In this document: positions 26,884 to 29,668 of the stretch, one piece after another
How the letters are laid out: each line of letters begins with the position of its first letter
Position numbering within the stretch: position 1 is the first letter of the stretch
Assembly (NCBI GenBank): GCA_031296075.1
Contig: JARLGK010000224.1
Coordinates: 1-41,350 of the forward strand
DNA from: Candidatus Acidiferrales bacterium
GTDB taxonomy: Bacteria > Acidobacteriota > Terriglobia > Acidiferrales > UBA7541
DNA: 41,350 bases
Direction of reading: 5' to 3'
Translations under genes and position numbers: made by a program
The notes under the pieces: model-generated
What the model saw: only the letters and a program-made list of their open reading frames with translations
What the model was told of the DNA's origin: nothing
Databases searched by the model: none

Positions 26884-27957
26884 TTGCGAAGCGTTGAACC
26901 GATCCGATGGACGCCCGAGGGCGTGGTCATGCTCGACCAGCGGCGACTGCCCGGCGAAGTGATCTACCACTCTTACGCCGACTACCGGGACGTGGCCAAG
27001 GCCATCAAGGATATGGTCATCCGAGGCGCGCCCGCGATCGGCGTCGCGGCGGCCATGGGCGTCGCTCTCGGCGTCGAACGCTCCAAGGCCAAGACGCTCG
27101 AGGAACTGCGCGTCGAGTTCGCGACGATCTGCGATACGCTCGGGCGCACCCGCCCGACGGCCGTCGATCTTTTCTGGGCCATCGATCGGTTCAAGCGCCG
27201 GTTCGCGGAACTCGCGCTGGCAGCCGCGGATCAAGGCGCCGCGGGTCTGGCTGGCATCCGGACCTCGCTCGTCGAGGAAGCGCAAAAACTCCATCAGGAA
27301 CGCCGCGACGCCGACGTGCGCATCGGCCGGTTCGGCGCCGAGTTGATGCCAAAAAGCGGCCGCGTGATGACCCAGTGCAACGCCGGCGCGCTGGCTACTG
27401 GCGGAATTGGCACGGCGCTCGGCGTGATTCGCATGGCCGTCGAGGGCGGCTACCGCATCGAAGTCCTGGTTCCCGAGACGCGGCCTTACCTGCAGGGCGC
27501 GCGGTTGACCGCATGGGAACTTCATCAGGACCACATTCCCCTGACGCTTATCACCGACAACATGGTCGGACACTTTTTGAAGACAGGGGGCGTCGGGGCG
27601 GTCGTTGTCGGCGCCGACCGAATCGCGAGCAATGGCGACACGGCCAATAAAATCGGCACGTATGGAATCGCCGTTCTCGCGCGGGAGAACAAAGTCCCCT
27701 TCTACGTGGCAGCGCCGATTTCGACGCTCGACCTTTCCATTGCCTCAGGAGACCAGATTCCCATCGAAGAACGTTCGCAGGAAGAGGTCACGCATCTCGC
27801 CGGCGTGCGCATTTCGCCCGACGTCCGCGCCGCGCATCCCGCCTTCGACGTCACGCCCGCGCGGTTCATCGACGCTATCATCACCGAACGCGGCGTCGCC
27901 CGCGCGCCATTTGAAACATCGCTTGCGGCATTAGCAGGGGCGAGGGACGAGGGTTGA
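26884..27957 (+). CDS. mtnA: S-methyl-5-thioribose-1-phosphate isomerase
   Basis: 357 residues from TTG 26884, which has GGAGA six bases upstream and gives the canonical start MRSVEPIRW. It converts methylthioribose-1-phosphate to methylthioribulose-1-phosphate in methionine salvage. Family motifs: [14 protein letters not shown] (about residue 50), [20 protein letters not shown] with the catalytic Cys (about 162), [19 protein letters not shown] with the catalytic Asp (about 243), and [12 protein letters not shown]. The last residues, AGARDEG, are encoded by the first units of a GAGGGRY repeat array, so the natural C-terminus has probably been altered. No other methionine-salvage gene is nearby. 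An eIF2B-like or ribose-1,5-bisphosphate isomerase role is less likely given the motifs. Confidence 0.94.
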
Positions 27958-27966
27958 GGGACGAGA
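27937..27966 (+). repeat. Left arm of an inverted heptanucleotide repeat array
   Basis: Tandem seven-base units of consensus GAGGGRY (GAGGGAC, GAGGGTT, GAGGGAC, GAGAAAT). The array covers the mtnA stop codon and supplies the ribosome site of the next gene. It is matched at 23 of 30 positions by the reverse complement of 28364-28395. Confidence 0.8.
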
Positions 27967-27967
27967 A

Positions 27968-28342
27968 ATGCCTGGCGACATCAAAAGTTATCGTGATCTG
28001 CTCGTCTGGCAAAGATCGATGGACCTTGTCGTGGTCAGTTATGAAGTTGCAAAGCTACTGCCCCATCATGAGAACTTTGGCTTGATTTCGCAGATTCGGC
28101 GGGCAGCCGTCTCGATACCGGCAAACATTGCGGAAGGACATGGCCGGAGACACCGGGGAGATTATCTGCACCAGCTGTCGATAGCACGGGGCTCTTTGCT
28201 CGAACTCGAAACACATCTTCTAATTTCGGTGCGTCTCGGCTATCTGCAATCCAAAGACATTCAACCCAGTCTTGGGCTAGCAGACGAAGTCGGAAGGATG
28301 ATTTCTGGCTTATTCCAAAGACTTCGGAGCAAGACAGACTAA
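27968..28342 (+). CDS. Four-helix-bundle protein (23S rRNA intervening-sequence protein family)
   Basis: 124 residues. The family pattern is clear: the start KSYRDLLVWQRSMDLVVVSYEV, then ISQIRRAAVSIPANIAEGHGRR (the most conserved helix), then a YLHQLSIARGSLLELETHLLIS helix and a final amphipathic helix. Such proteins are about 115-130 residues, form pentameric four-helix bundles, and are related to proteins encoded inside 23S rRNA intervening sequences and to the Avd accessory protein of diversity-generating retroelements. Their job is not established. No reverse transcriptase or rRNA is present here. The ribosome site (GAGG) comes from the flanking repeat. The gene sits between inverted repeat arrays, which suggests it arrived as a small cassette between mtnA and the permease genes. 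Confidence 0.92.
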   Translation: MPGDIKSYRDLLVWQRSMDLVVVSYEVAKLLPHHENFGLISQIRRAAVSIPANIAEGHGRRHRGDYLHQLSIARGSLLELETHLLISVRLGYLQSKDIQPSLGLADEVGRMISGLFQRLRSKTD

Positions 28343-28363
28343 CGGCCGCTAGGCGACGGGTTT

Positions 28364-28395
28364 CCCTCACCCCTCATCCCCCGCCCCTCACCCCT
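28364..28395 (-). repeat. Right arm of the inverted heptanucleotide repeat array
   Basis: On the minus strand the units are GAGGGGC, GGGGGAT, GAGGGGT and GAGGGAA, again GAGGGRY-like. It abuts the stop codon of the converging permease gene and lies 21 bases after the four-helix-bundle stop codon. Confidence 0.8.
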
Positions 28396-29668
28396 ATTCG
28401 TAGCGAAGCGCCTCAACCGGATTCAGCCGCGCGGCCTTCCACGCCGGATACACCCCGAAGAAGACGCCGATCAGGCTCGCTACGGTCACTCCGATGACCA
28501 CCAGGGAGATCGAAATCGAGGCAGGAAACGACGAAAAAGCCAACCGGATGGCAAGAACGATGGCGCAGCCAAACAGGACGCCCACCGTCCCTCCAAGCCC
28601 CGCGAGCGTCACAGCCTCCAGCAGAAACTGCGTGAGGATATTGGACTGGCGCGCGCCAATGGCCTTGCGTACGCCGATTTCGCGCGTACGTTCCGTCACG
28701 CTCACGAGCATGATGTTCATCACTCCGATGCCTCCCACCAGCAGCGCCACGGAGCCCACGGCAAGCATCACGATGAAAATTCCGCTCGAAATTTGATTCC
28801 ACAGCTCGAGAAAAGTGTCCGTCGTCAACACCGCAAAATCGTCGTCTTTCCTGGACGGCAGCTTCCGCACCCTGCGCATGTACTCGCGTATCTCGTCCAC
28901 AACCAGCGGAAGATTTTCCGTGGTATCCGCCTTGGCCAGAAAAATCACGTTCTTGAACTCCGGATGCAGCTTGCGTATCACCGAGAAAGGAACAAGCGCT
29001 TTGTTGTCCTCGGGATTTTCGCCGTTTCCAAGCGCTTGCTTCTGCTCCTCCAGTACGCCGACCACCGTGAAATCGTGGCCCTCCAGCAGCACTTCCTGTC
29101 CCACCGGATCCTCGCCATTGGGGAAAAGAGTGTCCGCGGTGATGTGCCCCAGCACGGTGACAGAAGAGTGATGATCCTCGTCCGTCTCGTTGAAGAAACG
29201 GCCGCGCGCCATCCCGAAATCGCTGATCTTCGAAATATCGGGGCCATCGCCTTCGAGAATTACGTTCTTCGCGCGAAGATTGCCGCGCCGCACCTCGCTC
29301 GCTCCCGCTCCGATGGCGTAATTCTCAATCTGCGCCGCGGGCGCGGCAGCCACCACGTGCGGCAAATCCCTCAGGCCATCGACCCATTCCGGCTGTAGAT
29401 CCTTGCGTTGAAGCACCTCGGCCGAAAGGCGCCCGAGCGTCGCCCACGAAAATTTGGAAACGATCACCGTGCTCGAACCCAGCTGCTGGATGTTGCCAAG
29501 CACGTTGGAATTCAGCCCGTTGATCACCGCGCCGATCACGATGATCGTGGTCACGCCGATCATGATGCCTAGAACGGTGAGAAACGATCGCAGCGGGTTG
29601 CGTAGCAACACGTCGAACGCCAGCCCGATCGCTTCCTTTACTTCGCTGAACTTTCCCGCCCTCGCCAT
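28394..29668 (-). CDS. ABC transporter permease, MacB type (second of pair)
   Basis: 424 residues; GAGG lies eight bases before the ATG. Topology is one N-terminal membrane helix (about 24-50, PLRSFLTVLGIMIGVTTIIV), a large periplasmic MacB_PCD domain (about 55-290), then three helices forming the FtsX domain (about 300-415), with the conserved LVGGIGVMNIMLVSVTERTREIGVRKAIGA. MacB-type proteins transmit ATP hydrolysis mechanically across the membrane for efflux or lipoprotein-related work. No ATPase domain is attached and none is encoded nearby, nor is a membrane-fusion protein, so partners must lie elsewhere. It lies 19 bases after the upstream permease. The stop codon is at the edge of the repeat array. 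Confidence 0.92.
   Translation of the reverse strand: MARAGKFSEVKEAIGLAFDVLLRNPLRSFLTVLGIMIGVTTIIVIGAVINGLNSNVLGNIQQLGSSTVIVSKFSWATLGRLSAEVLQRKDLQPEWVDGLRDLPHVVAAAPAAQIENYAIGAGASEVRRGNLRAKNVILEGDGPDISKISDFGMARGRFFNETDEDHHSSVTVLGHITADTLFPNGEDPVGQEVLLEGHDFTVVGVLEEQKQALGNGENPEDNKALVPFSVIRKLHPEFKNVIFLAKADTTENLPLVVDEIREYMRRVRKLPSRKDDDFAVLTTDTFLELWNQISSGIFIVMLAVGSVALLVGGIGVMNIMLVSVTERTREIGVRKAIGARQSNILTQFLLEAVTLAGLGGTVGVLFGCAIVLAIRLAFSSFPASISISLVVIGVTVASLIGVFFGVYPAWKAARLNPVEALRYE

Follow-up and report, generated by a model that had tools for sequence, protein, structure and literature searches.

The window, a 41,350-nucleotide stretch of Candidatus Acidiferrales bacterium DNA (GenBank assembly GCA_031296075.1, contig JARLGK010000224.1, forward strand), contains a small cassette at 27935..28396, its ends approximate to one repeat, whose sole gene encodes a 124-residue four-helix-bundle protein of the S23, or 23S_rRNA_IVP, family (27968..28342, plus strand; PF05635 and TIGR02436). 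The cassette lies between mtnA (26884..27957, plus strand; TIGR00512) and a MacB_PCD/FtsX permease gene (28394..29668, minus strand), not in a 23S rRNA gene, and no Y1 tyrosine transposase is found inside it. Its outer ends are tandem heptad arrays in opposite orientation. The left array, of GAGGGRY units, occupies 27936..27966 on the plus strand (Tandem Repeats Finder: period 7, 27936-27965, 4.3 copies), and the right array, its reverse complement, occupies 28364..28395 on the minus strand (period 7, 4.6 copies). As the initial annotation had pointed out, the two neighbouring genes converge on the cassette: the last codons of mtnA run into the left array, with the stop codon inside it at 27957 and the S23 start directly after the array, and the permease gene ends on the margin of the right array, at 28394. 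The further proposal that the left array provides the ribosome site of the S23 gene is consistent with the sequence, in which a GAGGGA stretch just 5' of the ATG is a candidate site.

The inverted bracketing noticed in that annotation is real. The left array and the reverse-complemented right array are identical at 23 of 30 positions, and comparing the two 200-bp flanks of the S23 gene gives an inverted-repeat score of 18.5, which none of 2000 shuffles reached; nor was it reached when the same arrangement was placed at 1580 other positions in the window. A loose pattern of two GAGGGRY units, with at most two mismatches, matches nine times in the window against 4.3 expected (3 of 100 shuffles reach nine), and eight of these matches fall within the two arrays. 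The protein matches PF05635 with an E value of 1e-36 and 125 bits (cut-off 33.8), and TIGR02436 with 119 bits. The genome from which the window comes, G000, has GAGGGRY arrays without an S23 gene as well. It also encodes a second S23 protein (L002, C10:22456-22770), bracketed by a different mirrored unit, of CGAAACT type, with neighbours that we take to be a Smr-domain gene and dnaG.

An mtnA match occurs in 17 genomes of the same genus besides the window's own, and the region downstream of mtnA was examined in 16 of these (all except G003). The permease gene follows mtnA in 11 of the 16. At ten of these junctions (G001, G005, G006, G007, G008, G009, G010, G012, G014 and G015) the cassette is missing as a unit: there is no S23 gene and no period-7 array, with detector scores of 3 to 5 (the window scores 9, G018 18). 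The junction of G007, which scores 5, could be an array relic. At the eleventh junction, in G018 (L033), the cassette is present at identical boundaries with its S23 gene in opposite orientation, and both orientations are therefore observed directly at one site. The S23 proteins of the window and G018, 71% identical, group as sisters in a tree of 36 rows (support 98/91). The earlier view of a cassette that brought its own terminal repeats into a gap between convergent genes is supported by the ten gene-less junctions, which are array-less too, and by a pair of loci in another phylum's assembly, in which array, gene and array were copied together.

That pair, L077 and L094, lies in one Gemmatimonadaceae metagenome assembly. 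The two S23 genes are 97% identical, and the DNA homology, 526 bp at 90%, begins and ends with the arrays, the flanks being unrelated; copying from array to array is here a direct observation. Because synonymous divergence between the two is 0.40, the jump was not very recent. Pairs of loci at the same site number 141 in the same orientation (138 without L161, a duplicate) and three inverted, at two sites, although those resting on MacB-type permeases possibly represent paralogous sites. At the second inverted site, where L156 is inverted relative to L207 and L170, the S23 proteins do not group as sisters, a pattern that separate insertions would fit better. Flanks are shared with L052, a nuoC-nuoD junction, by fourteen alphaproteobacterial loci in a single orientation, and their units drift together on both sides. 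The names nuoC and nuoD were verified at L052, and argF and argG at L040; the gene names of other S23 junctions are presumed.

Loci were assembled from several sources. The best 80 of 262 relatives (L033-L112) come from entries with titles naming Acidobacteria, Gemmatimonadetes, Planctomycetes, Chloroflexi, Cyanobacteria, Proteobacteria and others. The loci of best hidden Markov model scores (L143-L172) contributed 25 of 30, with L149, L153, L163, L167 and L171 omitted, their genes lying already in other regions. From about 146 S23 matches in ten multi-copy genomes, 60 high-scoring regions were taken (L191 and L232 were unused, as repeats of L034 and L036), plus 20 low-scoring ones. L161, which duplicates L035, stands inside the 165-locus sets and was removed from the 164-locus set and from the analyses of unit against protein, of the ratio of nonsynonymous to synonymous divergence (dN/dS) and of unit length; apart from these two, no pair among the 164 loci is more than 97% identical.

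Among flanks of 200 bp, period 7 is the strongest in 73 of the 81 upstream ones and in 71 of the 81 downstream ones, against 145 of 1556 control windows. Across the 164-locus set, made up of named relatives and multi-copy Acidobacteriota genomes, tandem arrays of period 7-9 lie upstream at 124 loci, downstream at 121, on at least one side at 148 and on both sides at 97, and 105 of 1840 single control windows reach an equal score. Arrays thus stand beside members of the family more often than chance would place them. The link between heptad arrays and this protein family that the initial annotation had suspected is therefore real, and far broader than supposed, but what is shared is not GAGGGRY as such: it is a locus-specific, mirrored unit of 7 to 9 nucleotides. 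The arrays are not limited to one subfamily, since among the 20 deliberately chosen low-scoring members 18 have an array on at least one side, and 17 have complementary arms.

The left flank matches the reverse complement of its own right flank at 141 of 165 loci, compared with 79 of 1980 arm pairs drawn from mismatched loci and one of 144 pairs of regions 900-1100 bp away. The inverted repeat has a median length of 31 nt at the 141 loci with complementary arms. At 68 of these a single register leads every other tested one by a margin above 3, an indication that the order of unit variants is mirrored between the arms. Unit length is equal at both ends in 107 of the 112 loci with arrays on both sides, the commonest copy number is four, and GC skew is positive in the arm upstream of S23 in 87% of 125. 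The end sequence is not conserved across the family, for units vary by locus; what is kept is the period, mostly 7, and the mirror symmetry. The element observed is thus one PF05635 gene of about 120 codons between mirrored arrays of about four 7-nt (sometimes 8- or 9-nt) repeats. It is a general architecture, in the sample, of a known orphan protein family, and apparently an undescribed one.

Complementary ends would also be expected of an RNA-level intervening sequence, whose arms pair in the transcript and form a stem cut by RNase III, making the element neutral in operons as in 23S rRNA. S23-bearing rRNA intervening sequences do have complementary, RNase III-cut ends, and the one in the 23S rRNA of Coxiella burnetii combines a 28-bp terminal stem with two to three tandem heptamers, variable among strains, upstream of its S23 open reading frame (PMC4990558). 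Many loci, moreover, lie between operon-like neighbours such as nuoC-nuoD and argF-argG. Against this, arm mismatches on the sense strand divide into 164 that are G-U-compatible and 160 that are incompatible (p 0.87), the window copy lies between convergent genes, and tandem 7-mers are unnecessary for RNA pairing. The RNA-pairing model was rejected, G-U-compatible mismatches not being enriched, and we consider an RNA-level explanation of the element quite unlikely.

The repeat unit tracks the protein, again by direct observation. For the 137 loci with a clear 7-mer, used in the unit-distance, Mantel and residue-coupling analyses, unit distance falls from 3.5 at 30-40% S23 identity (random units give 3.46) to 0.7 above 80%. 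The 9099 pairs without any flank homology give a Mantel r of -0.29 (null standard deviation 0.026), and 69% of the 26 such pairs at 70-80% S23 identity differ at no more than one unit position. Agreement of unit and protein extends across phyla, L097 (Chloroflexales) going with L100 and L110 (Cyanobacteria). Unit length behaves similarly: on a 95-locus S23 tree, units other than 7 need seven changes, and 1000 shuffles need at least ten. (For this tree the main set was pruned by flank homology and 17 low-scoring loci were left unpruned; L374, with unequal unit lengths, and L385 and L386, with no clear array, were omitted.) Both 7-mer and 8-mer S23 loci are held by a single genome, G020, and ATT-containing units occur at 9 of 14 7-mer loci of a divergent subfamily versus 12 of 137 in the main one. 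From this covariation alone we infer that S23 would bind the repeats, and S23 itself may be the recognition protein of the element; the enzyme that would move it is likewise inferred. One S23 locus, L147, has TCAGTTA-type units, which on the opposite strand read as the TAACTGA repeats described from giant sulfur bacteria.

Arrays are found without the gene as well. G057 has 23 period-7 arrays in 400 kb, two of them at its one full S23 locus there; periods 5, 6, 8, 10, 11 and 12 give 0 or 1 each, period 9 gives six, and shuffled sequence gives none. Two inverted pairs lacking S23, with gaps of 94 and 142 bp, were found in this genome, and a third by eye. Of its 21 S23-less arrays, thirteen (62%) differ by at most one mismatch from S23 units of G057 itself, and 67% come equally close to the S23 units of its congener G116; the unit sets of six genomes from other genera, which differ in size from 2 to 9 units, give 0-29% for the same arrays. 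G161, with ten S23 genes, has 18 arrays in 200 kb. In G183, with three, positions 1-200000 of C2 contain no period-7 arrays and instead three of 8-mers and three of 9-mers, as if its elements use longer units. Sampled sequence from the S23-free G028 and G034 holds no arrays, and 20-kb samples gave 16 arrays from nine S23-rich genomes versus two, both in G048, from ten S23-free genomes (p 0.007). One solo array is translated in frame inside prmC (TIGR03534; L004 887-1834; L273-L290). By eye, across 18 genomes of the genus and at one codon position, it is of GAGGGGC, GAGTGGC or GTGACTC type, degenerate, or missing; concerted change of repeats thus appears to affect this solo array too.

Arrays of this kind might be host simple-sequence repeats born of replication slippage, with S23 genes as passengers that insert or are tolerated there. 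Arrays outnumber S23 genes, as the 400 kb of G057 illustrate; they occur in two S23-less congeners and inside prmC; their copy number and unit vary between species at one place; and polymerase slippage is the cause given for heptad excess in PMC4679880 and PMC4692102. Slippage does not account well for empty sites that are array-less in all ten cases, nor for a copied unit that includes both arrays, nor for units that follow the protein at sites without flank homology and unit lengths that follow the protein clade. The presence of 7-mers and 8-mers together in G020 and the scarcity of arrays in the sampled S23-free genomes speak against it too, and we judge it unlikely.

If the element moves as DNA, a Y1 (RAYT-type) transposase could catalyse the movement in trans, S23 being an accessory. 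S23 and Y1_Tnp do co-occur over 201 genomes (95 of 108 versus 59 of 93, p 5e-5; Spearman 0.41), in a comparison uncorrected for kinship, genome size and completeness, and the array-bearing, S23-less G001 and G009 have 7 and 4 Y1 matches. Thirteen of the 108 S23 genomes, however, have no Y1 match, and arrays flank just 2 of 21 sampled Y1 genes (L363, in both flanks, and L356, where a 9-mer occurs twice) in flanks scanned over 320 and 400 bp, longer than those of S23 genes. Inverted repeats scoring at least 14 are present in the flanks of 19 of the 21, REP-like by eye in several, and because other inverted repeats are so common there and arrays so rare, Y1 flanks serve as a control for the array detector. 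Movement by a Y1 enzyme is in our view very unlikely. Six of the Y1 genes (L353, L357, L358, L365, L368 and L371) lie inside long inverted repeats (score 40 to 81) that are REP-like by eye, so RAYT/REPIN-like systems coexist with S23 systems.

The initial annotation had also raised retro-mobilisation, in which S23, as a relative of Avd, would act with a reverse transcriptase in trans. The likeness to Avd is remote, the window protein scoring under the cut-off with both models of that type (bAvd 25.5 of 40; DivGenRetAVD 30.1 of 80), and S23 and RVT_1 counts have a weak positive rank correlation of 0.16 (p 0.02). No RVT_1 match, nevertheless, is found in the window's genome, which is 89% complete, or in 12 of 27 genomes with at least five S23 genes; presence of the two families is not associated over the 201 genomes (p 0.20); and the sense-RNA pairing test was negative, leaving no RNA signature. 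A reverse-transcriptase link was rejected for want of association in presence, this part of the annotation is not supported, and a retro-element is extremely unlikely.

S23 is under purifying selection, with dN/dS of 0.05-0.13 in eight of nine pairs of relatives; the ninth, 0.57, has few silent changes. Its conserved polar residues, in window numbering, are R45, S49, N53, E56, R60, S76 and E79. PDB relatives are 2gsc and 2rld. The former has five chains, and a title cited in PMC10053308 describes it as an assembly of five four-helix bundles. One pentamer per array, at a modal four copies, fits only loosely.

We consider it probable that the window feature is one copy of a small mobile element, widespread and moving at the level of DNA, in which the S23 protein reads its cognate repeats. 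In such an element a pentameric S23 ring would bind the cognate array as DNA or as single-stranded DNA, each subunit perhaps contacting one repeat, and would bring the two inverted arms together in synapsis; a nuclease or replication machinery, of the host or acting in trans, would then copy or excise the element, and arrays without the gene as well. Solo arrays, like short inverted pairs, would stand to S23 elements as REPINs do to RAYTs, as non-autonomous derivatives. Movement would be slow: related species share many copies at the same sites, and the two arms of each drift together. The intervening sequences of rRNA would be copies of the element inserted there. Evenly balanced, in our judgement, is a larger proposition: that S23 elements are a pan-bacterial class of transposable elements without fixed ends, in which every lineage of the protein recognises a 7-, 8- or 9-nt unit of its own, of a length set by the protein, the arms being rewritten in concert, and that much unexplained heptanucleotide content, together with rRNA intervening sequences, comprises the living and dead parts of such elements.

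Several observations weigh against a mobile element of this kind. Within a genome, S23 copies at different sites have mostly diverged: over 120 pairs from 8 genomes identity has a median of 41% and a maximum of 77%, so recent jumps are rare. No target-site duplication is seen by eye at L077/L094 or at the mtnA site, where array ends blur such signals, and we know of no catalytic motif in S23. At the mtnA junction the G018 copy of S23 is interrupted by an internal stop codon. In the mtnA phylogeny, moreover, the empty G009 and G007 (97/94) and, less firmly, G001 (85/86) are nearer to the window's genome than G018 is, though the S23 proteins are sisters; the cassette must either have been lost more than once and inverted once or have entered twice at one spot. 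The detector finds no array at 16 of the 164 loci, although at three of these (L036, L060 and L068) short arrays are visible by eye. Period-7 solo arrays are missing from 4 of 11 S23-bearing genomes sampled (G183, G190, G181 and G020). Conversely, exact GAGGGRY double units, overlaps counted, occur seven times in G001 and six in G009 (control 0), neither of which has an S23 match, so arrays can outlive or precede the gene. The relation of unit to protein was computed without host lineage as a covariate, the main weakness of this part. Coupling of S23 residues to the unit is not significant, the best r being -0.100 against a null 5th percentile of -0.103; seven of the eight best-coupled residues, none beyond the null, fall at window residues 63-82. 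The prediction of a GGGAATC-like unit for Xcc0516 either failed or was uninformative: the nearest sampled relative, only 62% identical, has a unit three mismatches from GGGAATC, and random sets come as close to it as the five nearest do. Finally, heptads in Xanthomonas and Nostoc are described as unusually stable loci with no association with insertion sequences or transposable elements (PMC4692102).

Among known systems the closest are the rRNA intervening sequences, which share the PF05635 protein and inverted complementary ends and which an older literature, cited in PMC4990558, regarded as transposition remnants or mobile elements. The present element differs in lying between protein genes, in having arrays at both ends and in having locus-specific units that track the protein. 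RAYT/REPIN systems (PMC3116915) similarly combine one protein gene, related inverted short repeats and dispersed gene-less copies; S23 elements, unlike these, have no Y1 transposase, end in tandem 7-9-mers (missing at 19 of 21 sampled Y1 genes) and carry the gene along with the ends. With Avd of diversity-generating retroelements (PMC10053308) S23 shares a four-helix-bundle fold family and remote sequence likeness, but Avd models stay under their cut-offs and the window's genome has no reverse transcriptase match. Terminal inverted repeats are shared with classical insertion sequences and miniature inverted-repeat transposable elements, whose family-wide conserved end sequence S23 elements lack. 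Published heptads, GGGAATC in Xanthomonas and GGGGA(C/T)T in Nostoc (PMC4692102) and TAACTGA in Beggiatoaceae (PMC4679880), are likewise tandem 7-mers, often beside start or stop codons, with four units preferred in Xanthomonas and Nostoc and 70-75 close inverted pairs per Xanthomonas genome. In their accessible parts, PMC4679880 makes no mention of 23S, S23 or four-helix in connection with TAACTGA, and PMC4692102 none of 23S or XCC0516. A general link between S23 and heptads was not found in the openly licensed literature searched; subscription papers could hold one. Cyanobacterial heptads and small repeats have also been the subject of work by others. Since rRNA intervening sequences share the protein, the inverted ends and, once, heptamers, we keep S23 elements for now near that known kind; they would deserve a class of their own if recognition of free-sequence repeats were shown.

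If the proposal is true, two orphans are explained jointly, the abundant tandem heptanucleotides of bacteria and the role of the S23 proteins of rRNA intervening sequences, and a free end sequence coupled to a protein-matched unit length is a new way of marking the ends of an element. The pairs of protein and unit found here make recognition directly testable. Caution is also called for in reading function from context, as S23 genes in operons, cas loci included, need not serve the functions of those operons. In PMC3936711, 23S_rRNA_IVP genes between cmr3 and cmr2 are reported among CRISPR-Cas-associated functions; insertion at an operon junction may be the simpler reading.

Two minor observations concern individual loci. 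L064 and L087 (CALQCM020000084 and CALQCM020000011), from a metagenome-assembled genome named Chitinophaga pinensis, share S23 sites with L112 and L082, whose titles name Betaproteobacteria; the Chitinophaga pinensis bin may be mislabelled or mixed. In L181 and L189 (G057 C5 and G116 C9), S23 domains lie within longer open reading frames of 296 and 444 codons at a shared, array-less site, with two adjacent matches in G116, possibly representing a domesticated S23 protein.
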